Below, piece by piece: positions 6,677 through 45,600 of a stretch of 64,000 bases of DNA. Where the stretch lies: contig JAFGUD010000470.1 of the NCBI GenBank assembly GCA_016938685.1, forward strand, positions 1-64,000. The letters are read 5' to 3'. The notes beneath the pieces were generated by a model. That model saw only the letters and a list, made by a program, of their open reading frames with translations. It was not told the DNA's origin and ran no database searches. The translations under genes and the position numbers were made by a program. Positions within the stretch are counted from its first letter, which is position 1; each line of letters opens with the position of its first letter. Source of the stretch: Bacteroidales bacterium. GTDB taxonomy: Bacteria; Bacteroidota; Bacteroidia; Bacteroidales; JAFGUD01.

Positions 6677-8335
6677 ATGTTATCAGCAATAAATCGTTCG
6701 GAAGAACTAAAAGCCATTGATGGCAAAACATTTGATTTAATAGTAGTTGGCGGTGGTATAACCGGTGCCGGAATAGCTCTTGATGCTGCTTCGCGCGGAT
6801 TATCTGTTGCTGTTTTTGAAAAACAGGATTTTGCCGAAGGTACTAGCAGCCGTTCAACAAAACTTGTTCATGGTGGACTTCGTTATCTTGAACATCTTGA
6901 ATTTGGAATAGTTCGTGCTGTTGGGCGCGAACGCAAAATTGTTCACGACAATGCAATGCACATTGTTTTGCCCGAAAGAATGATTCTTCCTATTATCGAA
7001 GGCGGTTCTCTTGGCGAATTTACAACAAGTATCGCTCTTAAATTATACGATTTTCTGGCAGATGTAAAAAAGACCGAACAACGTAAAATGATGAGTGTTG
7101 AAGAGGTTGTAAAAGCCGAACCTTTGTTGGAGTCTGAGTTTCTTAAAGGTGGTGCAATGTACTATGAATATAAAACCGACGATTCCCGTTTAACTATTGA
7201 AATAGCCAAAAAAGCTAATGAATTTGGTGCAAAACTTTTTAATTATGCCGAAGTCACAGAGTTTTTGTACGAAAATAACTTCAAAATAAATGGAGTTACC
7301 GTAAAAGATACAATTACCGAAAGTGAAATTTCTGTTTACGGAAAATATGTTGTTAACGCTACCGGTATTTGGGTTGACCAAATGCGTAGAAAAGACGACG
7401 AAAAAGCTCCTCAAAGATTACATATCACAAAAGGAATTCACATTGTTGTTTCTAAAACAAAACTTCCGTTGAAACATTCTGTCTATTTTGATGTTGGCGA
7501 CAATAGAATGGTTTTTGCAATCCCACGTTTTGATGTTGTTTATATTGGTACAACAGATACTAATTATGATCAAAATTACGAAAATCCAAACGTTGAACTT
7601 AAAGATGTTCAGTATCTTATTGATGCGTTTAATAATATTTCCCCAAAAGCAAATTTAAAACTCGAAGATGTTGAATCTGCTTGGTCTGGATTGCGTCCTT
7701 TGATTCACGAAGAAGGGAAAAAACCGTCGGAATTATCCAGAAAAGACGAAATCTTTTATTCCGATTCCGGCTTGATTTCAATTGCAGGCGGAAAATTAAC
7801 AGGTTATAGATTGATGGCGAAAAAAATAATTGAAATCATTAGAAAAAGAATGAAAGATGATTTTGGAAACGATATTGGAGATTGTAAAACCAAAACTATT
7901 AAACTTGCCGGTGGTGAATTTGATTTTGATTATTCTTCTGTTAAACTAATAGAATATGCTGATTCTAAATATGATGAAGCCAAACAACTCGGAATAAGTG
8001 TTGCTGATTTCAAAAAACTGTTTTATCGATATGGAAAAAATATTGATTTAGTAACAAACAAAGCGTTTGAATTTTACAATGAAAATAAAAATTTCAGACT
8101 TGCATGGTTAAAAGCAGAAGTTTGGTACACAGTTAATTACGAAAGTGTTGCCTGTCTTGGAGATTTCTTTGTTCGCCGAACTGGTATGATTCATTTTTTT
8201 GTAAAAGAAATAAAACCAATGATTGAAGATGCCGCTAATTTTATGCAGGAATTATTAGGCTGGACTGATGAAACTAAGCAAAAAGCAATAGAAACGTTTA
8301 CTTCAAAGTACAAAAAAGTAAATGAATTTGAATAG
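6677..8335 (+). CDS. glpD: FAD-dependent glycerol-3-phosphate dehydrogenase
   Basis: 552 residues, full length for GlpD/GlpA. It oxidises sn-glycerol 3-phosphate to dihydroxyacetone phosphate and passes electrons to the quinone pool at the inner membrane. The N-terminal dinucleotide fold reads VVGGGITGAGIALDAASRG (residues 22-40), followed by the family signature GTSSRSTKLVHGGLRYLE near 55-72. The region IAGGKLTGYRLMA near 365 closes the FAD domain, and a C-terminal helical DAO_C domain follows. No glpK or glpF gene is near. The gene ends in a strong hairpin terminator. Confidence 0.95.
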   Translation: MLSAINRSEELKAIDGKTFDLIVVGGGITGAGIALDAASRGLSVAVFEKQDFAEGTSSRSTKLVHGGLRYLEHLEFGIVRAVGRERKIVHDNAMHIVLPERMILPIIEGGSLGEFTTSIALKLYDFLADVKKTEQRKMMSVEEVVKAEPLLESEFLKGGAMYYEYKTDDSRLTIEIAKKANEFGAKLFNYAEVTEFLYENNFKINGVTVKDTITESEISVYGKYVVNATGIWVDQMRRKDDEKAPQRLHITKGIHIVVSKTKLPLKHSVYFDVGDNRMVFAIPRFDVVYIGTTDTNYDQNYENPNVELKDVQYLIDAFNNISPKANLKLEDVESAWSGLRPLIHEEGKKPSELSRKDEIFYSDSGLISIAGGKLTGYRLMAKKIIEIIRKRMKDDFGNDIGDCKTKTIKLAGGEFDFDYSSVKLIEYADSKYDEAKQLGISVADFKKLFYRYGKNIDLVTNKAFEFYNENKNFRLAWLKAEVWYTVNYESVACLGDFFVRRTGMIHFFVKEIKPMIEDAANFMQELLGWTDETKQKAIETFTSKYKKVNEFE

Positions 8336-22330: not shown

Positions 22331-24325
22331 TTACTTGATTTTACTCTCAGGTACGGGAAATTCCATCGGGGTTAACATATCGCCGCTTGTGTTGTAATCC
22401 ACAACCTGACTTACATAAGGTTTTCCGTAGCTACCTGTGTAGTCTTCTTTTATCAGAACAGAGCGAGCAATTCTATAAGCACCGTTTGACGTTTTGTATA
22501 AAATATCTGCTTTGCATGTTCTGTAAACAGGTAAGTTTAAAATATCTACGGTTACTTTCCATTCTGTTTGGGCAGCAACATCTATTATCACTGAGCCACC
22601 ATTAGGAGAAATACTTGTTTTTAAGTAATTGTCAACAGAAGTCCATTCTCCTCCGGCATGTGATAGTTTTTTTGCAGACGAAGAACTAATTAGTTGTTGT
22701 CTAGCAGTTTCTGTAAGGTTAAGATTAACAGTTGTTTCAGCTATTGAATACCATTTGTTATGAAATTCGCTTGTGTTTTCAAAAGTTGCAGAGTATGGAA
22801 TACATTCAGTAGAGTATGCTTTAATTTTTAGAGTATGATTTCCGCTTTTCATTTGCCCGCTGTAAATTAAGTCGTATAATGCGTAGGGCAGGGGATTAGT
22901 AATTGAACCTCTATGAAATAAATCTTCGGAATTGAAAGTTGCTTCATTATTTTCAAAGTCTTTGTCGTTTGCCGGTAGAATTGTCAAATTGAAAGATTTT
23001 TGAGATTCATAAGCATCGTCGTCAAATTCTGTTGTCCATGCAGCAAGGAATTTTCCGTCAAGTTCTGCGTAGAAATTAAGGTTTCCGTGGTCATAATCGC
23101 ACGTATTAGCTTTGCACCAATAAATATTGTAGAATTTTGGCGGATTTGGAAGTTCAAGTTTTGATGTAATTGGGGAGCTTCCAATATTTAATGTGCTTGC
23201 AGCATAATTAAAGTTTCCAATGTCCTTGTCGTTTAAAGGTCGTAAATATTTTGGACCTCTTTTATAAAGTTCTTTTTTGTTATTATCATCCATTGAAATT
23301 GTTATTTCTCCGCTTGCGATTATTCCGGCAGGTTCTTTTGCATCACTTTCGCCTAGCCCAAATTCAACTTTAATTTTATTATTGCCGTTTTTAAGGTTAA
23401 GAATTTCAGCAATAGTAAATTGCATATTGATTGAGTTTTCTGTAAATAATTGTTGCAGCAACCAAATATCTTGTTCTTGTGATAATAAATCAGGGTTTTC
23501 TTGTAATTTTTTCCCAAAATCAGAATTAATTGTCAATGGGATATCAAAATCATTCCAAACTTTTGAGTAGTTACTGGTAAATTGATAAGGACCTGTAACA
23601 GAAACAAGTTTATCGTTTATGTAAAATTTGAAGAAACCATAAGCATTAAAAGTGCTTGACAATCCTAAGCCTTCTGAATATTCCATCATTGTTTTGCCAA
23701 GATTTATTTTAGCAAAAAGTTCGTCGCTAGCAGGTACTTTTTCAGTAAATTGAAAATCTTTGAATTTAGTATAGAAATATATTTTACCTGCTTCGTTGTC
23801 TGATGCATTATAAACTACATCATTTACTTTTGTTGAAGAATTAGAATTACATTTTTCAATTTCGCTTCTGTAATATTTTTCCTGTCCCCAGTATTCCATA
23901 ACAGCCATAACAGAATCAAGGTCAGCTTGTGCAAGTTGACAATCACCTTTTTCAATTTCATCAGAAAGTTTGGTCATGTATTGATTTTCAACATTACTTT
24001 CCATTTCCTTAACTTTTTGTGAAGCACTATAATCACCGGAATTTTTAGCAAGAGCAGCTTTATAGTATTTTAATGCTGATAAATAATCTCCTTCTCCTGC
24101 TTTTTCGGCACCTTTATTCATCAACGAGCTATAACTTCCTTTTTCGGCATTGTCTGATTTTGAGTTGTCGTCATCTTTGTCTTTGTCATTGTCCTTGTCC
24201 TTTTTGTTGTTTTTAACATTGTTTACTCCGTTTTTAACATTGTTAACGTTAATCTGAGCCGAAACGCCTACACTAAAAACAGAAAAGATTAAAAACGTTA
24301 CAATAAAAATCACTTGTTTTTTCAT
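22331..24325 (-). CDS. hypothetical exported protein with TPR-like segment
   Basis: 664 residues. A signal peptide (about 1-24) is followed by an Asn/Val/Lys stretch with repeated NVKN and then a Lys/Asp low-complexity linker (about 35-60). Residues 60-150 look like TPR helices (GAEKAGEGDYLSALKYYKAA). The remaining 500 residues are mixed beta and not recognised. No T9SS sorting domain and no lipobox, so probably periplasmic or secreted by another route. The previous gene on this strand begins 79 bp downstream, with a terminator between them. Confidence 0.68.
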   Translation of the reverse strand: MKKQVIFIVTFLIFSVFSVGVSAQINVNNVKNGVNNVKNNKKDKDNDKDKDDDNSKSDNAEKGSYSSLMNKGAEKAGEGDYLSALKYYKAALAKNSGDYSASQKVKEMESNVENQYMTKLSDEIEKGDCQLAQADLDSVMAVMEYWGQEKYYRSEIEKCNSNSSTKVNDVVYNASDNEAGKIYFYTKFKDFQFTEKVPASDELFAKINLGKTMMEYSEGLGLSSTFNAYGFFKFYINDKLVSVTGPYQFTSNYSKVWNDFDIPLTINSDFGKKLQENPDLLSQEQDIWLLQQLFTENSINMQFTIAEILNLKNGNNKIKVEFGLGESDAKEPAGIIASGEITISMDDNNKKELYKRGPKYLRPLNDKDIGNFNYAASTLNIGSSPITSKLELPNPPKFYNIYWCKANTCDYDHGNLNFYAELDGKFLAAWTTEFDDDAYESQKSFNLTILPANDKDFENNEATFNSEDLFHRGSITNPLPYALYDLIYSGQMKSGNHTLKIKAYSTECIPYSATFENTSEFHNKWYSIAETTVNLNLTETARQQLISSSSAKKLSHAGGEWTSVDNYLKTSISPNGGSVIIDVAAQTEWKVTVDILNLPVYRTCKADILYKTSNGAYRIARSVLIKEDYTGSYGKPYVSQVVDYNTSGDMLTPMEFPVPESKIK

Positions 24326-24442: not shown

Positions 24443-24504
24443 TTAAAGCAGTTTGAATTTTTTCATCAAATCTTCTTTGAATTTTCTGCTGATGCCGAAA
24501 AAAT
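24443..24504 (-). pseudogene. 3'-end remnant of a LytTR response regulator gene
   Basis: On the minus strand this encodes FFGISRKFKEDLMKKFKLL and a stop, the same last 19 residues as the regulator at 29460. Bases 24456-24504 are identical to 29473-29521 over 49 bp. The last codons (TTC AAA CTG CTT TAA against TTT AAG TTG TTG TAG) differ only by synonymous changes, so this is the tail of a once functional homologue rather than a recent copy. Nothing upstream of FFGIS is preserved. The rest of 24326-24560 holds no other recognisable element. Confidence 0.85.
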
Positions 24505-24560
24505 ATATAAATTGGTGTTATTTTGATAAGTTGGAACTTTTTATATGAATTAAGGTTTAA

Positions 24561-26912
24561 TTAAAATTTTAAACTGTAACTTATTGAAGGAATGATTGGG
24601 AAAAGGCTTTGTTGGTATAGTTTTTTGACTGTTTTCCCATTTTCAATATTAGTGTCAAAAAAGTAAAAGTATGGATTTTGACGATTGTAAGTATTATATA
24701 TATTTATAGACCAAATTCGCAAACATTTTTCTTTTTGTTTTTTAAAATTAACAGATAAATCAAGTCTGTGATAAGGTTTCATCCGATAAGAATTTTTTTG
24801 TGTAAAATATTCCGTATGGTTAATCCAAGTGTTATTAGATAAAATATTATAACTGTCTATGGTTTCGATATATGCACTAGGTAAACTAATAGGTCTTCCT
24901 GACTGAAAAATCCAAAATATAGAAAAATCAATATTTTCGTTTAATTTATAAGCAGCAAAGATTTTAAAGTCATGTGGTCTGTCATATTCATATAAATACT
25001 CATTCCCAAGATTTATTTCAGCAAATTGTCTTGTTGTTTTTGAATAAGTGTACGCAATCCAACCGTTTACTTTCCCATTTGTCTTTTTTAAAAATAATTC
25101 AATTCCTTTACTTATTCCAATTCCTTCTTTCACACAGTTTTCTTCCCAATTATTAGCATTGTTTTGTATTGTGCCATACTCAAAAGCTAATAAATTTGTT
25201 GTTTTTTTGAAATAAAGATCGATATTCAGACTCAGATATTGAGAAAATATTAAGTTAACACCAGAAGCCACTTGTTTCGCATTTTCAGGAGGTGTCTGGT
25301 TTGTGGCAGGCAGCCATAAAGCACTTTCACCGCCATAATCAGCATATTGAATCTTGTGAATATTTTGGGTAGTTTCGGTATATGATGATTTTAGAGACAG
25401 CCATTTACTTAATATAATATTAATATCTACTCTGGGCTGCAAAGAGTTAAAAAACTTTTTATTAAATTTATATACGTTATATCTTAATCCCAAGTTAAGG
25501 ATTAAAAATTTACCTAATTTTATATCGTTTTCTAAAAAAGCAGAATATTCTTCTGATTTATATTTTGTTGAAATAGTAGTGTCTATTGTATTACTTATTG
25601 TATTATAATCAAGAAAATAAGAATTTGCAGGTTCAAATGTATGAGAAACAATATTAAATCCAATAAAAAGTTTGTAAAAATTTGAAATAAAAATAGTAGA
25701 ATTGTTGTTAAATGACATATCGAAAATAGAAGAATAAAATCTACTTTCATACGAAGTCGTGTCATTTGATTTTATGTTTAAGTATTTATTTTCAGTGTTA
25801 TACTTGAATTTAGACATAATAAAAGTGAAATTTGAAAATGAATTTCTAAATAATTTTGTATTCCATCTAATAGAACCTAAAGAGTTTCCGATATTTAATC
25901 TGTACTTATATTTTGAATAGTTTGAGTTATCTGAGTCATTAAAATTGGATGCAGAATTATCTTTTCCTTTGTAAAAACTTATAAATAATTTATTGTTATT
26001 TGAAAATTTATAATTAAATTTTAAGTTCGCATCGTAAAAAGAAAAAGAAGAAGCATCTTTATTATTAAGTAAATATGTATAAGGTATTGTAAATAAATCA
26101 ATAAAAGAACGTCTATATCCAAAAATAAATGACAATTTTTCTTTGATAATTGGACCTTCCACAAAAAAATTAGATGTAACCGGACTAATTGTAAAATTGT
26201 AATGAAAATTTTTCATATCACCGTCTTTTGTGCGAATGTCAATCACGGAAGATAATCTTCCACCGTACCTCGCAGGATATGAAGTTTTGTACAATTCCAC
26301 ATTTTTTATTGTATTAATATTAAAAATAGACACAAAACCGCCTAAATGATTTAGATAATATACAGGAGCATCATCTATAATTATTAAATTCTGATCGCTT
26401 GAGCCACCATGTACTATCAAATCGCTTTTCCCTTCAGTGCTTTGAGTTACTCCTGAGAGCATTTGCATACCTTTTAAAATATCAACTTCTGCTCCTAACA
26501 TAGGCATAATTTTAAAATTAGAAACATCAAGGTTAATCATACCTATTGGCTTTTCTAACATATTTTCTTTAGAGTTGATCACAATCTCTTCTATTTCCAA
26601 ATCATTTTTTTGAAGCTGAAAAACAATTGATGTATCACTTGAAATATGCAAAAACAATATTTCACTTTTATACCCGATATGATGTATTCTGAAAACACAA
26701 GTGTCTGCCAAGATAGCTTTTAAATTAAAATATCCGTATCCATTTGTTTGAAAAAACAAATTGTTATATTCTACAAAAGCACCAATCAATCTTTCTTTTG
26801 AGTCTTTGTCTTCAACATAGCCGCTTATATTATATTTTTGCCCGAACAAATTAATTGTAATTAATAAGTAAAAACAAACTAAAATAGTTTTAATGATAAT
26901 TTTCGCCTTCAT
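24561..26912 (-). CDS. TonB-dependent receptor with carboxypeptidase-like regulatory domain
   Basis: 783 residues. A signal peptide (1-24) is followed by a carboxypeptidase D regulatory-like domain (about 28-110, YNISGYVEDKDSKERLIGAFVEY) and a plug with MLSGVTQSTEGKSDLIVHGG near residue 150-170. A beta-barrel of about 22 strands ends in the aromatic SYSLKF. It should import a ligand through the outer membrane using TonB energy. It overlaps the DUF4249 gene by 23 bp, so they are translated together. It is probably the pore of a SusC/D-like complex, but no SusD homologue exists. The ligand is unknown. It lies inside the cassette flanked by the 49-bp direct repeat. Confidence 0.9.
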   Translation of the reverse strand: MKAKIIIKTILVCFYLLITINLFGQKYNISGYVEDKDSKERLIGAFVEYNNLFFQTNGYGYFNLKAILADTCVFRIHHIGYKSEILFLHISSDTSIVFQLQKNDLEIEEIVINSKENMLEKPIGMINLDVSNFKIMPMLGAEVDILKGMQMLSGVTQSTEGKSDLIVHGGSSDQNLIIIDDAPVYYLNHLGGFVSIFNINTIKNVELYKTSYPARYGGRLSSVIDIRTKDGDMKNFHYNFTISPVTSNFFVEGPIIKEKLSFIFGYRRSFIDLFTIPYTYLLNNKDASSFSFYDANLKFNYKFSNNNKLFISFYKGKDNSASNFNDSDNSNYSKYKYRLNIGNSLGSIRWNTKLFRNSFSNFTFIMSKFKYNTENKYLNIKSNDTTSYESRFYSSIFDMSFNNNSTIFISNFYKLFIGFNIVSHTFEPANSYFLDYNTISNTIDTTISTKYKSEEYSAFLENDIKLGKFLILNLGLRYNVYKFNKKFFNSLQPRVDINIILSKWLSLKSSYTETTQNIHKIQYADYGGESALWLPATNQTPPENAKQVASGVNLIFSQYLSLNIDLYFKKTTNLLAFEYGTIQNNANNWEENCVKEGIGISKGIELFLKKTNGKVNGWIAYTYSKTTRQFAEINLGNEYLYEYDRPHDFKIFAAYKLNENIDFSIFWIFQSGRPISLPSAYIETIDSYNILSNNTWINHTEYFTQKNSYRMKPYHRLDLSVNFKKQKEKCLRIWSINIYNTYNRQNPYFYFFDTNIENGKTVKKLYQQSLFPIIPSISYSLKF

Positions 26913-27822
26913 AGATTAAGGTATCATAAATTGGATTAAATCCGGCAAAAATGCCTAATCCGTTAGTAATATTTGAATAAATGTAAAAATCCTGATTTGT
27001 ATTATATAAATCAGGAAGTGTATTAATTATCTCAGCTTGAATAACAGATTTTTTATATTTATAATTGGCAAAACTGATTTTATTAAGCTGTAAAATAACA
27101 ATTAGATTTGTGTCTATCGTTTCAGAATAAGCGTGAGGCAAAAATATTTTGTCAGTCTCATAGTCAATAGAAAAGCTTTGGGTTTCATTTTGAAAAAAAC
27201 TATCAGAAAAGATGACATTAGTATAAAAATTTCCAATCATATTATTTGTTTCATTTGAAATAACGTTACTTTCTGCCTGAAACCAGCAAAATGAAGTAAT
27301 AAAATTGCTGTCTATATATCCTGATCTAGTATATGGAAAACTCAAATTATAGTAATCGGAGCCGATTTTATCAGCTATATTAAAATCTAATGTTGAATAC
27401 AAGTAGCTTTCAATTTCTTTACAATAAGCTGTGTTGTTAACATAATTATAATCACTTTTTGATGGAATTGTATCAGTTGCATAAATAATTTCATATTCAG
27501 GAACATCTATCTTTATTGTATATGGAGTTTCAATATTCGCAACTACATTTGATAAATAATCTCCATTACCTACATATTTTAAATCATCAATTTTTGCAAA
27601 ACCTGACCACAATTCAATTTTAGCATTTTCTATAATCTCAGTGTTTGTATCAAGAGGATTTGCTGAAAAAGAGAGATGTACATTGAAAAGACTATCAGGA
27701 CAAAAAAGGCAATTAACAACAACTTGTTTATCAATCTGTTTAAAATCTAAATCTACTTCTTTTATGCAAGAATAATTAAGAAAAACTATTGCAAAAAAAA
27801 ACAACCAAATGATATTTTTCAT
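26890..27822 (-). CDS. DUF4249 family lipoprotein
   Basis: 310 residues. The lipobox FLNYSC places the lipidated Cys at residue 19, and the following CIKEVDLDFKQIDKQVVVNCLF segment is the usual DUF4249 start. Beta-rich throughout, like an outer-membrane lipoprotein. DUF4249 genes typically sit next to TonB-dependent receptors in Bacteroidota and probably act as their surface lid or accessory protein. The stop codon lies inside the receptor gene (26890-26912), so the pair is strictly coupled. Ligand unknown. Confidence 0.88.
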   Translation of the reverse strand: MKNIIWLFFFAIVFLNYSCIKEVDLDFKQIDKQVVVNCLFCPDSLFNVHLSFSANPLDTNTEIIENAKIELWSGFAKIDDLKYVGNGDYLSNVVANIETPYTIKIDVPEYEIIYATDTIPSKSDYNYVNNTAYCKEIESYLYSTLDFNIADKIGSDYYNLSFPYTRSGYIDSNFITSFCWFQAESNVISNETNNMIGNFYTNVIFSDSFFQNETQSFSIDYETDKIFLPHAYSETIDTNLIVILQLNKISFANYKYKKSVIQAEIINTLPDLYNTNQDFYIYSNITNGLGIFAGFNPIYDTLIYEGENYH

Positions 27823-27943
27823 ATAAAATTATTCAAAAGTTATAATTTGCTTCTTAAAAATAGAATAAATAAGCAAGTATTTCTATTGGAAAAATGAAAA
27901 CTTGCTTAAAAATTCCATAATTATAAGATAAATCAAAATTTCA

Positions 27944-29038
27944 TTACCAAATCAATGTAGTGCTTAAAGTACCTTCCTCTCCTGCTTCGAAATTAGCAGT
28001 AATTTCATTAGGTTTTACACTGAAGAAATTTGAATACATAGGGGCTGTGACCGAAAAACTATTATTGTCATGATCCCCAGTGTTGCCAGACTTCGCTCTA
28101 TATCCTAGTGGAGCATCATCACATTTGTTTTTTGTATAAACCCATCCTGATATTCCTGCGTATAAATATGTACTCCAATTTTTCCATCTCTTTCCATTCC
28201 AATAAGATGTTTTTACACTAGCTTTTAAATGATGGGTAAATAATACAGCATTATTTACAATATCTATTTTTCCTTCAATTTTTCTTTTGATACCATCTTC
28301 TATCCATGTCTCCATATCCCAGGCAGTTGAAATATTTTCTCTGCATTTTGTAGTCTTACATTCTACACAATAGGTTTCTTCATTTTCATAATCTCCATAT
28401 ACTTTAATAATGCCTTCTTTTTCCAAATTGGTCAATGAATTAATGTTTAATTTCTCTAAAATAGTAAAATCTAAATTAAATATTTCCACTGTTATTTCTT
28501 CGGTCATAAAAACAAAAATACTATTTTCAATAATTACTTCTCCATTTTTATTTAATAAAGCTCTTAACGTTACGTCGCTTATATAATAATTATCAGGATT
28601 GTATATTTCTTCTTGATCAAAAATTTTATTATATTCGTCAATTTTATCTTGAATTTCTGCTCTTAAACTTCTAAAATATAAAGAATTTTCAAAACTACTA
28701 TAAACTAAATTATAATCAATTTCTATACTTTCGGATAATTCAATTGATTCTTTATCACTTAAATTTTGAAAAATATTTGAAATTTTGGACAAATATAAAT
28801 TGTTTATAGAGTCTAGTTCCCTATATGTTTTTCTGAAACTTTCCAAATCTTTAAAGACTAATATTCCATTTCTTACTAATATTTCTTCATGCTTTGGATA
28901 AAATAACTCAGTTCCAATAGTGTTGATTTCTGTTTTTTTACTTTCTATTTTTGTAATTTCCTGTTTTTCGCAACCACTAAAAATAAATCCAAGTGTTAAA
29001 ACTGCAACCAAAAGTAGTGGTAAATTTTTTAATTTCAT
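27944..29038 (-). CDS. hypothetical lipoprotein
   Basis: 364 residues from the ATG at 29038; an upstream in-frame ATG at 29104 would put 22 polar residues before the signal and is rejected. The signal ends in GFIFSGC with the lipidated Cys at 23. A coiled-coil or helical part (about 60-150) is followed by a beta-rich half with CVECKTTKC, a Cys-rich pair, and Trp-rich segments such as SYWNGKRWKNW. I do not recognise the family. It stands 121 bp upstream of the DUF4249 gene on the same strand and within the 49-bp direct repeats, so it may belong to the same uptake unit. Confidence 0.65.
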   Translation of the reverse strand: MKLKNLPLLLVAVLTLGFIFSGCEKQEITKIESKKTEINTIGTELFYPKHEEILVRNGILVFKDLESFRKTYRELDSINNLYLSKISNIFQNLSDKESIELSESIEIDYNLVYSSFENSLYFRSLRAEIQDKIDEYNKIFDQEEIYNPDNYYISDVTLRALLNKNGEVIIENSIFVFMTEEITVEIFNLDFTILEKLNINSLTNLEKEGIIKVYGDYENEETYCVECKTTKCRENISTAWDMETWIEDGIKRKIEGKIDIVNNAVLFTHHLKASVKTSYWNGKRWKNWSTYLYAGISGWVYTKNKCDDAPLGYRAKSGNTGDHDNNSFSVTAPMYSNFFSVKPNEITANFEAGEEGTLSTTLIW

Positions 29039-29459
29039 TGTTAAAATTTTTAAAAAAGTTAATAAATTATTCCGATATGGTTTTAGTGTTCGTGATTTTT
29101 GCATAGCAAAAAATTAAAACTAAAATAATACCAGCATTACACCCGAATTACAAATAATATTCTTTGGTTTGACAGGTGTAACAAGTTGATTTTTAGCGGA
29201 TAATGTTTTCTGATAGTACGTACTTTCTGGGCGCAAAGTCAAAAAAAAAAAAAACAGAATGACCAAATTGAATTACATGTTTTACAACACTAATTTGTGT
29301 TAATTATTTGGAGCTATTGAGTTTATTGGGCTTTATAAAAATAGTTGTGTCTTATAGTTATTTTATAATTTATAGCAATAGTTTGTTAAACTTATTGGTG
29401 CATACATGTCTATTAAAGAGTCAAGGCTTTTTGTTTGGTGGTAGGAGGCTTTAAGTTTT
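29039..29459. other. gene-free stretch
   Basis: No open frame. It contains a 7-bp inverted pair, TTACACC...GGTGTAA, spaced by about 30 bases near 29138-29180, and an A14 tract near 29240. It lies between the 3' end of the response regulator and the lipoprotein start, so any promoter for the cassette genes should be here. I saw no convincing TAnnTTTG box. Confidence 0.5.
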
Positions 29460-30185
29460 CTACAACAACTTAAATTTTTTCATCAAATCTTCTTTGAATT
29501 TTCTGCTGATGCCGAAAAAATCACTTTTTATGTAAACCATGTTGTCTTCAATTTTGTCTATTTTATCAATTGCAACAGCGTGTGATTTGTGGATTCTTAC
29601 TATGTTTTCGTCATTTATTTTTTCCAAAGTTGTTCGTAGATTGGAACTTGAAAAGAATTTTCCTTTTAGCGTTTTTATAAGTGAGTAATTGTCAACTGCC
29701 TGAATCCAAAGAATATCTGATATGTCTATTTTTATAAGTTTGTTGTTGTCTTTTACAAAAATAAAATTTTTATTATCCGATTCATTTAATAAAGTATTGG
29801 GTTCGTTATTTTTGAAACGTTCAATTGCAAGTGTTATATTGTGACTTAAATCGTTGTCTTTAAAGGGTTTAGTGATATAACCCATAGGATTTGTTGGTAA
29901 GGTTTCCTTAAAAAAAGAATCATCGGTATATGCTGTTAGAAAAATTACAGGAATATTAAATTTTTCTTTTATTATTTTAGCAATGTCAATGCCCGATTTT
30001 TTTTCGTTAAGGTTGATGTCTAATATTGCAATATCTATCTGTTTTTCAGCAAGTAACATAAGAGCTTCGTTGTACGATGAAGCATTACCCACAACGTCAA
30101 AATTCATTGCGGTTAAGCGATTTTCGAGGTCGAGTGCAATTGTAAACTCATCTTCAACTATCAGTACTTTTATTTTTTCTTCCAT
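29460..30185 (-). CDS. LytTR-type response regulator
   Basis: 241 residues. The receiver domain (about 1-120) has VLIVEDEFTIALDLE with the acidic pair, AILDINLNEKKSG with the phospho-acceptor Asp near 57, and YITKPFK with the switch Lys. The LytTR DNA-binding domain (about 140-241) starts at FIFVKDNNKLIKIDISDILWIQA and ends in FFGISRKFKEDLMKKFKLL. The histidine kinase at 30208 lies 22 bp upstream on the same strand, so they are a two-component pair. The 3' end is duplicated at 24456-24504 as a 49-bp identical stretch. Confidence 0.93.
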   Translation of the reverse strand: MEEKIKVLIVEDEFTIALDLENRLTAMNFDVVGNASSYNEALMLLAEKQIDIAILDINLNEKKSGIDIAKIIKEKFNIPVIFLTAYTDDSFFKETLPTNPMGYITKPFKDNDLSHNITLAIERFKNNEPNTLLNESDNKNFIFVKDNNKLIKIDISDILWIQAVDNYSLIKTLKGKFFSSSNLRTTLEKINDENIVRIHKSHAVAIDKIDKIEDNMVYIKSDFFGISRKFKEDLMKKFKLL

Positions 30186-30207: not shown

Positions 30208-32142
30208 TCAGGATTTTAATGGAATAACAATTTTAAATTTTACTCCAATTTCTGTTTCTTCGATTGAAAATGAACCTTTAATTTGTTTTGTCATACCTGT
30301 AATTAGATTCATTCCAAGTGAATTGGTTTTAATAATATCAAAATCAGAAGTAAGACCGGAGCCGTTGTCCGAATAAATAATTGTAGAATAATTGTTGTCA
30401 TTTTTTCCGAAAATAGAAATTTCTGGTGTGTTTTGTTTACTAAACGCGTGTTTTATACTGTTTGTTATTAGTTCGTTCAATATTAATCCAAAAGTAACCG
30501 CATTATTAACTTCAAAAAAAACGTTTTCAATTTCCAAATTTAGATTTATTCTTTTGTCCGTTTTGTTCAAAGATTTGATAATATTTAAAGCCATTTCTTC
30601 AACATATTCTGCAATGTCGATTGATTTTAAATTGACTGATTTATAGAGTTTTTCATGTATTGCAACCATCGACGAGATTCTGTTACGGCTTATCTCCAAA
30701 ATTTCTTCAACAGGTAAATCTTTTGAGTGACTTTTTTGTAAGTTAAGCAAACTTGATATTATCTGTAAATTGTTTTTAACGCGATGATGAAGTTCTTTGA
30801 GTAAAACTTCTCTTTCTGTTACTCTTAATAATAATTCTTTACTAAGTTTTGTTTTTATCCTAAATTGATAAAAAAATACAATAGCAAATAATGCTAAAAC
30901 AAATGCTGTTAAGATTACAAAAATTAGAAATATGCTTCGTTTTTCTGCTAAGGCAGTTTTTTTATCTATTTCTAGCTGTTTAATTTTGGCTGTATTTTGC
31001 AGGTCTTTTATTTGATTTTCTTTGTCTTTTAAATCATATTTAACTTGCAGATTGTTTATGTTTTTTGTTTGTTCTAAGTTGAAAATTGAGTCTTTGATTG
31101 TTTGGCTTTTTTCAAGATATTTTAAAGCTGAATCTGCGTAATTTATTGATTTATAGGTAGTATAAAGTTTTGTGTAAATGTCTAATTGTAGTTTGAAAGA
31201 GTTTACTTTTATAATATTATCTAATGCAGAATAGTAATAATTTTGGGCTAAATTAAATTTATCGGTCAAAAAATAGTAATCACCGATTCCAATCAAAGCT
31301 TGAACAATTCCGAAAGTATAATCAGTTTCTGAAAATAATTTGTAAGCTTTTGAAAAATAAAAAAGAGCTTCTTTGTTTTCGCCAAGTTTAAAAAGAGCTT
31401 CTGCTAAATTTATATAAGAATTTCCCGCATCAGTTTTCCTGTTGTCTTCTTCCCAAAGTATTGCCGATTTTTTATATGTGTTTTTTGCCTGCTCGTAGTC
31501 TTTTTGTTTAAAGTATAAGCTTGCCATATCAGTTAGAACAAAAGCCTCGCCTCGTTTTTGTCCGGTTTTTTCATAAAATTCTTTTGATATGTTGAAAAAA
31601 TGAAGTGCTTTGTCAAAATTATTTATTTCAAGATATAATTCTCCAATATTTGAATATACGTTTGCCAGATTAATAGTGTCTAAGGTGCTTTCAAAAATTT
31701 GCATTGACTCAAAATAATAAGAAAGCGATTTTTCATAGTCTCCAATTTCCTGATAAATACGTGCAATATTATTATCACACGAAGCAACACCTTCCATGTA
31801 TTCGTCTTGTCTGAAATAATTCTGAGCCTGTTTAATGTAAAAAAGAGCACTGTCGTATTTGCCTGTGTTTTTATATGTTACGCCAAGTAATAGACTAACA
31901 TAAGTTAGGTTTTCTATGTCATCAACTTTTGTGTTTTCGAGCGATTTTTGACAATAATAAATACACGAATCATAATTTTGGTAATGAATAACATAAGCTA
32001 TCTGGTAGTAAATATCTGCAATGCTGTCAGTTGTTTTTAGCAGATTTTTAAGGGAGTCTATTTCGCTTTGACTAAATACGTTTTGCGTAAAAATAAGCAG
32101 AATTAGAAAAGGGAAAATTGTTTTTTTTATCAATTGTTTCAC
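30208..32142 (-). CDS. TPR sensor histidine kinase (HisKA_2 type)
   Basis: 644 residues, GTG start. A signal peptide or N-terminal helix (1-25) precedes a periplasmic or exposed TPR array (about 40-330) with repeated ALxYY/AxNxYxKS patterns. Then come a coiled coil (360-400), a membrane helix (about 403-425), a HisKA_2 dimerisation domain with ELHHRVKNNLQII (His near 449) and an HATPase domain with NELITNSIKHAF and DNGSGL. It phosphorylates the LytTR regulator encoded 22 bp downstream. The signal sensed is unknown. A TATATTCG word about 30 bp upstream may be its -7 box. Confidence 0.9.
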   Translation of the reverse strand: MKQLIKKTIFPFLILLIFTQNVFSQSEIDSLKNLLKTTDSIADIYYQIAYVIHYQNYDSCIYYCQKSLENTKVDDIENLTYVSLLLGVTYKNTGKYDSALFYIKQAQNYFRQDEYMEGVASCDNNIARIYQEIGDYEKSLSYYFESMQIFESTLDTINLANVYSNIGELYLEINNFDKALHFFNISKEFYEKTGQKRGEAFVLTDMASLYFKQKDYEQAKNTYKKSAILWEEDNRKTDAGNSYINLAEALFKLGENKEALFYFSKAYKLFSETDYTFGIVQALIGIGDYYFLTDKFNLAQNYYYSALDNIIKVNSFKLQLDIYTKLYTTYKSINYADSALKYLEKSQTIKDSIFNLEQTKNINNLQVKYDLKDKENQIKDLQNTAKIKQLEIDKKTALAEKRSIFLIFVILTAFVLALFAIVFFYQFRIKTKLSKELLLRVTEREVLLKELHHRVKNNLQIISSLLNLQKSHSKDLPVEEILEISRNRISSMVAIHEKLYKSVNLKSIDIAEYVEEMALNIIKSLNKTDKRINLNLEIENVFFEVNNAVTFGLILNELITNSIKHAFSKQNTPEISIFGKNDNNYSTIIYSDNGSGLTSDFDIIKTNSLGMNLITGMTKQIKGSFSIEETEIGVKFKIVIPLKS

Positions 32143-44368: not shown

Positions 44369-44629
44369 CTACATCCATGTTTCAACTTCTTTATCTAATT
44401 CATCGGAAGTTAAATATTTCCCTTTTTTATAAGCTACTTCTGCTTCATTAATTTTATTATTATATTCAATGGTTGTCATTTTGTTAATGACATCTTTATC
44501 TGTTAGAAAATCATAGATATCATCTTTAAATTCGGCAAAAATTGATTTTCTTTCAGCAGTATTAAGTTGTCTGAAGATTTTTATAATTTGTTCTTTGTTA
44601 AAATCAACTGTTATTTTTAAATTGTCCAT
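44369..44629 (-). CDS. orphan antitoxin-like protein
   Basis: 86 residues, mostly helical and charged: KITVDFNKEQIIKIFRQL at the start and YNNKINEAEVAYKKGKYLTSDELDKEVETWM at the end, a tail typical of antitoxins that contact a RelE/ParE- or PIN-type toxin. Its upstream 53 bp, including the TATATTTG box at 44648, are nearly the same as those of the DUF2281 antitoxin gene at 45215. No toxin gene follows it; the next 500 bp are non-coding. So it is probably the survivor of a broken toxin-antitoxin unit. Family uncertain. Confidence 0.6.
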   Translation of the reverse strand: MDNLKITVDFNKEQIIKIFRQLNTAERKSIFAEFKDDIYDFLTDKDVINKMTTIEYNNKINEAEVAYKKGKYLTSDELDKEVETWM

Positions 44630-44647
44630 TTATTCTGATTTTTTTTA

Positions 44648-44655
44648 CAAATATA
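44648..44655 (-). promoter_or_regulatory. -7 promoter box of the orphan antitoxin
   Basis: TATATTTG on the minus strand, in a 53-bp segment (44628-44680) nearly identical to 45446-45498. Confidence 0.6.
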
Positions 44656-44798
44656 CATTTTTTGTCACAAAGAAGTTATACCAAATTGTTAAAATAATTC
44701 CGAGAATTATTTTTTACAAGTTGTTATGTTGATTGACTTTAAAACCGATTTTAAGAAAATGAAATCGGATTTTTTAAAGCATTTCGGTATAAAATTAG

Positions 44799-45221: not shown

Positions 45222-45448
45222 TCTCCTTCGATATTTTGAAATTCAGAGTTAACAATGTTTTTTATTTCTTCTGCACTTTTGTCGTCAATTATTCCGGCAA
45301 ATTTTGATAGAAAATGTTCTTGTTTGTTTTTATTTTGAGAAGAGTCTTTGTAAGATTTTTTGATAAATTGCATAAAATTATACAGCTGATCTAATATTTC
45401 AGGAGGCAAAGAATTTAATTCGATGCTAATTTGTTCTTTTATTTCCAT
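45215..45448 (-). CDS. DUF2281 family antitoxin (VapB-like)
   Basis: 77 residues. KEQISIELNSLPPEILDQLYNFMQFIKKSY is the DUF2281 pattern (ExLPEExxxEVLDFIxFL-like), and the C-terminus SEFQNIEGEW should contact the PIN toxin. It overlaps the toxin start by 7 bp, so translation is coupled. The toxin is broken by a stop codon, leaving this antitoxin without a full-length partner. A TATATTTG box stands 18 bp upstream at 45467. Confidence 0.85.
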   Translation of the reverse strand: MEIKEQISIELNSLPPEILDQLYNFMQFIKKSYKDSSQNKNKQEHFLSKFAGIIDDKSAEEIKNIVNSEFQNIEGEW

Positions 45449-45466
45449 TTATTCTGATTTTTTTTA

Positions 45467-45474
45467 CAAATATA
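45467..45474 (-). promoter_or_regulatory. -7 promoter box of the DUF2281 antitoxin
   Basis: TATATTTG on the minus strand, 18 bp before the start. Confidence 0.6.
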
Positions 45475-45502
45475 CGTTTTTTGTCAGAAAGAAGTTAAAA
45501 TC

Positions 45503-45555: not shown

Positions 45556-45600
45556 TTAAATCTAACTTTACAAACTTTAAGAACTCTAAGAACTTTCAAC
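45556..45600 (+). repeat. family A repeat after frr
   Basis: AACTTTACAAACTTTAAGAACTCTAAGAACTTTCAACTCTT on the plus strand, next to the frr stop codon. This is the one copy not placed before a start codon. Confidence 0.75.

Follow-up and report, generated by a model that had tools for sequence, protein, structure and literature searches.

A TonB receptor operon that looks like a small mobile islet at the 3' end of a response regulator gene in a Bacteroidales bacterium

Introduction

IMEs with tyrosine recombinases recombine at direct repeats of 8-60 bp, often at gene 3' ends, and do so without disrupting the gene (PMC5704250). A CIME is a cis-mobilizable element that has lost its integration and transfer genes and has kept attL and attR (PMC5704250). 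The e14 element of E. coli supplies the 3' end of icd (PMC6379469). The pairing of DUF4249 with a TonB receptor is a known conserved operon of the BT2172/BT2173 type (PMC11003636).

We analyzed a locus in a 64,000-nucleotide stretch of a Bacteroidales genome (the whole stretch is called the window here) that resembles a small mobile islet lacking its own mobility enzyme. A nutrient-uptake operon appears to have been caught joining a bacterial chromosome with the target gene unharmed, and codon choice together with the order of the neighbouring genes reveals the direction of the event. This group has many and variable surface TonB/lipoprotein operons, whose spread from chromosome to chromosome is rarely seen at base level.

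Results

Contents of the cassette and its surroundings

The earlier note on this DNA had placed a TonB receptor, a DUF4249 protein and a lipoprotein between two copies of a 49-bp repeat, and our gene list agreed with it for all three. The features of the locus are as follows.

22331-24325, minus strand: gene for a 664-aa protein, the native downstream neighbour of the regulator, with relatives in only five of the order's 392 other genomes (G350, G162, G130, G324 and G064)
24443-24455, minus strand: putatively native regulator tail (FKLL, stop TAA) beside the 664-aa gene and 117 bp from it, synonymous to the present tail
24456-24504, minus strand: the stranded 49-bp block, a putative attR-like site that matches 29473-29521 exactly
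24561-26912, minus strand: cargo, TonB-dependent receptor of 783 aa (Pfam PF13715, PF07715, PF00593), with 34-41% identical paralogues in the genus
26890-27822, minus strand: cargo, DUF4249 protein of 310 aa (Pfam PF14054)
27944-29038, minus strand: cargo, lipoprotein of 364 aa from the second ATG, genus-specific and in no Pfam or NCBIfam family
29185-29297, minus strand: promoter-like upstream element of the cassette, with a TTTGG box and a T14 tract (29241-29254), in a context common to other cassettes
29460-29472, minus strand: putatively imported regulator tail (FKLL, stop TAG), every codon synonymously different from the stranded tail
29473-29521, minus strand: the 49-bp block within the regulator 3' end, putative attL-like site, exact match to the stranded copy
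29460-30185, minus strand: target gene, LytTR response regulator of 241 aa (Pfam Response_reg and LytTR), relatives 46-51% identical
30208-32142, minus strand: TPR/HisKA_2 histidine kinase (Pfam), the regulator's partner, which also adjoins the regulator in G350 and G130

The three cassette genes were all open and on one strand. The receptor stop was 56 bp from the stranded block, while the lipoprotein start was about 420 bp from the regulator stop. The DUF4249 and receptor genes overlapped (26890 versus 26912), as in an operon with a receptor-adjacent DUF4249 gene. As TonB receptor/DUF4249 operons go the cargo is ordinary, apart from an unusual poly-T region upstream, and by its sequence the cassette seems to carry an upstream region of its own that resembles a promoter. 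The ORF list and Pfam revealed no integrase, transposase or relaxase among the genes between the repeats, as the earlier note had observed for an integrase; since the insert has no integrase of its own, we rejected an autonomous integrative element (ICE, IME or prophage). Base composition was not decisive as evidence of foreign origin, since the cassette genes were AT-rich (26-27% GC) but the kinase and regulator genes were AT-rich too (28-30%). The 664-aa protein belonged to no known Pfam or NCBIfam family.

The duplicated block and the two tails

The sequences at 24456-24504 and 29473-29521 were 100% identical over 49 bp, both on the minus strand, confirming the identity that had been claimed. 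When we searched the 4.75-Mb draft genome for the block, only these two copies were found even with up to 3 mismatches allowed, and the proposed search for other cassettes with the same repeat thus returned no third copy. In 20 simulated windows with the same dinucleotide make-up, the longest exact repeat ranged from 16 to 20 bp, as compared to 49 bp in the real one. Folding of the block into a hairpin or att-like structure was unremarkable (z about -1.6).

The regulator tail reads AAA AAA TTT AAG TTG TTG TAG, with its stop at 29460-29462 on the minus strand, while the stranded tail reads AAA AAA TTC AAA CTG CTT TAA, with its stop at 24443-24445. Both encode KKFKLL and keep the reading frame to the stop. 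Beyond the block there were 6 base differences, confined to the last 5 codons including the stop, and all 6 were synonymous (rough chance 3e-5), just as had been asserted for the first copy. The two copies therefore share 16 identical codons and then abruptly differ in 5; clustering of the 5 changed codons at the end of 21 would occur once in 20,349 if they were scattered. Upstream of the 24504/29521 boundary the similarity to the regulator ended abruptly, and no residue of the regulator body was detected at 24.5 kb. The mosaic identity and the synonymous tails indicate that two diverged versions of the same gene contributed these ends, and they place a recombination boundary at the block edge.

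Gene order in relatives

A wider search identified relatives of the regulator at 47-50% identity in G350, G162, G130 and G324. The regulator relative is followed directly by the 664-aa relative on the same strand in G350, G130 and G064, with 160, 162 and 209 bp, respectively, between the regulator end and the first ATG of the next gene. Two small ORFs (about 1.1 kb) separate the two genes in G162, which we considered as a second insertion at the same place and rejected since no duplicated tail was found; the two relatives in G324 are on separate contigs. The receptor cassette was absent from all four contigs that carry both genes (G350, G130, G064 and G162), and none of these four had a second regulator tail downstream, with the window serving as a positive control. 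When 24456-29472 (5,017 bp) was removed in silico, the regulator ended in TTCAAACTGCTTTAA, followed by 117 bp and then the 664-aa gene, which is the order in the relatives. The proposed comparison with relatives lacking the three genes thus yielded an empty arrangement at the level of gene order, though not of bases (relatives 44-51% identical in protein, three genomes of other families).

Since the order in the relatives is free of the cassette, the cassette was most likely gained, with the stranded tail native and the present tail of the regulator imported. The earlier note had proposed insertion at a gene's 3' end, with the tail restored at one junction and stranded at the other. The mosaic repeat and the gene order support that proposal with one refinement, namely that the cassette supplied the present tail and the stranded one is the original. 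The regulator tail was poorly conserved among these relatives, yet the two tails in the window encode the same amino acids with different codons, from which we infer that the donor of the imported tail may have been a closely related species. The tail expected in such a donor would be TTTAAGTTGTTGTAG.

Other sources were less helpful. The genus-mates G001 and G002 have neither a close relative of the regulator nor the 664-aa gene, and so were unusable as empty-site references, and synteny around HtpG was of no help in finding an empty site. Intergenic DNA compared with the relatives gave no further information. Neither an empty site in the same species nor a circular form of the cassette was found, and a contig scan with the kinase gave one unrelated match only. 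Nothing close was detected in viral contigs with the site as query, in phage records with the regulator or in plasmid records with the lipoprotein.

Five of the six genomes of the order that carry the 664-aa gene (4 of the 5 others) also have this type of regulator with at least 47% identity; in G064, the remaining genome, the regulator relative next to the 664-aa gene is 35% identical. Judged from sequence, the 664-aa protein may be a conserved partner of the two-component system.

Poly-T upstream elements and other repeats

Tracts of T12-T16, mostly after a TTTGG box, were located upstream of the first gene in several lipoprotein/TonB operons. They occur at 29241-29254 of the window, at G000:C170:158-169, at G000:C230:72914-72963, at the end of G000:C522, where the tract is longer than 12-16 nt, and at 2587-2813 of L112 (G000:C426). 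Runs of A or T of at least 11 nt numbered 11 in 1.15 Mb, and 7 of these were at four such operon-upstream places. The tracts suggest promoters that would be prone to slippage and hence phase-variable.

A 133-bp non-coding stretch was 96% identical between G000:C170:90-330 and G001:C81:1-133, and it matched 29185-29297 of the window at 76%. The HtpG proteins of G000 and G001 were 78% identical. The non-coding identity set against that of HtpG suggests that the cassette upstream element may have been transferred recently between the two species. Two further repeats were noted in the window: AACTTTACAAACTTTAAGAACT, in tandem at its start (18-102) and again at 45564-45585, and a 32-bp direct repeat at 44625-44656 and 45444-45475.

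Related cassettes in the genus

Related TonB receptors gave 10 matches in G000, 7 in G001 and 11 in G002, and many TonB receptors of the genus sit in lipoprotein-DUF4249-TonB operons. The ends of several are nearly identical, even where the genes they enclose are dissimilar. Two tandem TonB genes in L112 (G000:C426), about 40% identical to the window receptor and unlike each other upstream, have identical 42-bp 3' ends including the stop (2545-2586 and 7088-7129), such that a lipoprotein-DUF4249-TonB unit is bracketed by a TonB gene tail in the layout of the window cassette. An identical 42-bp lipoprotein leader lies before and after one complete cassette in L126 (G001:C206; 145-186 and 5231-5272, 5.1 kb apart), and its second copy has lost the ATG. 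TonB cassettes in L108, L116 and L117 (G002) and L069 (G001) occupy contigs of about 5 kb whose ends break in shared sequence, and the TonB stop is followed by the end of one multi-copy gene in convergent orientation, its product terminating in ...EWILEDV.K. Together with the poly-T tracts and the upstream element, these features are consistent with a family of operons undergoing exchange and shuffling, but they are no proof of the mechanism at the window locus. It is conceivable, but in our estimate improbable, that the poly-T-headed lipoprotein-DUF4249-TonB operons form a pool of self-contained mobile single-operon cassettes in the genus, which a recombinase encoded outside them would shift from one gene 3' end to another, like large integron-like cassettes.

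Discussion

That the cassette was gained at the regulator 3' end is, in our judgment, very likely. The ancestral order would have been kinase, regulator, a 117-bp gap and the 664-aa gene. The incoming DNA would have been a circle of about 5,017 bp with the upstream element, the lipoprotein, DUF4249 and TonB receptor genes and its own version of the regulator 3' end, and it would have recombined with the target gene within the 49-bp block. The regulator would thereby have acquired the incoming tail with the same amino acids, so that the gene was not broken, and the native tail would have remained beside the 664-aa gene. A circular intermediate is favoured because mosaic tail duplication does not result from linear insertion but does result when a circle recombines at a short segment common to both molecules.

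If the cassette was inserted, a site-specific route is the likelier one, by an integrase that presumably acted in trans or was lost. Given the repeats described for IMEs and CIMEs, and e14 at icd, we favor an integrase-less, CIME-like islet at the regulator 3' end whose recombinase was lost or is trans-acting, with a rough probability of 0.6. Tyrosine-recombinase domains gave nine matches elsewhere in the genome, none tied to the 49-bp site, and some of them are probably housekeeping Xer enzymes. When about 1.15 Mb of the genome was scanned by peptide tails, no other duplicated gene tail bracketing genes was found; only this half of the scan was informative, since a strict low-complexity filter dropped the 49-mer itself from the DNA repeat list. 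With no further case in the sampled part of the genome and no third copy of the site, dedicated mobility is a possibility rather than a finding.

Nearly the same anatomy is predicted by a RecA-type single crossover (Campbell integration) of a circular or tandem donor bearing the cassette and the regulator end of a related species; the block would then be the tract of crossover or conversion, and dedicated mobility would not exist. Such an event agrees with an insert devoid of an integrase, with the one case found in the genome site search and the tail scan, and with the short near-identical ends of the related cassettes of the genus, which look as if homologous recombination acts on them. The homology, however, stops abruptly within the gene at 29521, the donor's share of the regulator would be only its last 64 bp, and 49 bp is short for efficient RecA recombination; we regard this route as rather unlikely, though it is the main rival of the site-specific one.

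The main alternative named in the earlier note was a decayed second regulator. On this reading a kinase-regulator-cassette unit was duplicated, or a paralogue was present at 24.5 kb, and deletion then removed all of the second regulator but its last 21 codons. In favour of decay, the stranded copy is a genuine gene end: it has a stop of its own and its codons are synonymous. Decay of uniform age would not yield 16 identical and then 5 different codons, no trace of a regulator body was seen at 24.5 kb, and in the relatives the 664-aa gene is immediately preceded by one regulator and no second one is there, all of which makes decay very improbable. An artefact of assembly at a short repeat might be suspected because the draft consists of 555 contigs, its contamination is estimated at 5.4% and the repeat is about as long as an assembler k-mer. 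A misjoin of two linear loci, however, makes both junctions only if one of them already has the block at both cassette ends or in circular form, and that amounts to the same biological claim; we consider an artefact the most improbable of these explanations.

The CIME-like islet can be compared with several described systems. In a diversity-generating retroelement, a gene 3' end carries template and variable repeats, and the window likewise has a short repeat of a gene 3' end some kilobases off. We rejected this since the differences between the tails are C/T, A/G and T/G, all synonymous and not adenine-specific, and Pfam found no reverse transcriptase domain in the genes at 16.6-32.1 kb. If a trans-acting recombinase is found, receptor turnover would be tied to a site-specific system.

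The cargo, like operons of the BT2172/BT2173 type, pairs a receptor with a DUF4249 gene, but it is preceded by a genus-only lipoprotein gene and the T14 tract. As in e14 at icd, the insert gives an alternative 3' end, and a fragment with the displaced end remains at the far junction. However, e14 is a prophage of 15 kb that encodes its integrase while the islet has none, and the displaced icd end is about 163 bp as compared to 62 bp here, including the stop. The islet resembles a CIME in that direct repeats within the 8-60 bp range flank it, one of them being the target gene 3' end, with frame and amino acids preserved and an empty site seen at the level of gene order, and in that only the lipoprotein, DUF4249 and TonB receptor genes lie between the repeats, with integration and transfer genes absent. 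It differs from a CIME in that no related ICE/IME or cognate integrase was identified for it, in that it consists of one 5-kb transport operon and in its target, a LytTR regulator. The islet is most likely a variant of an already known kind of element, CIME-like and similar to e14 at icd.
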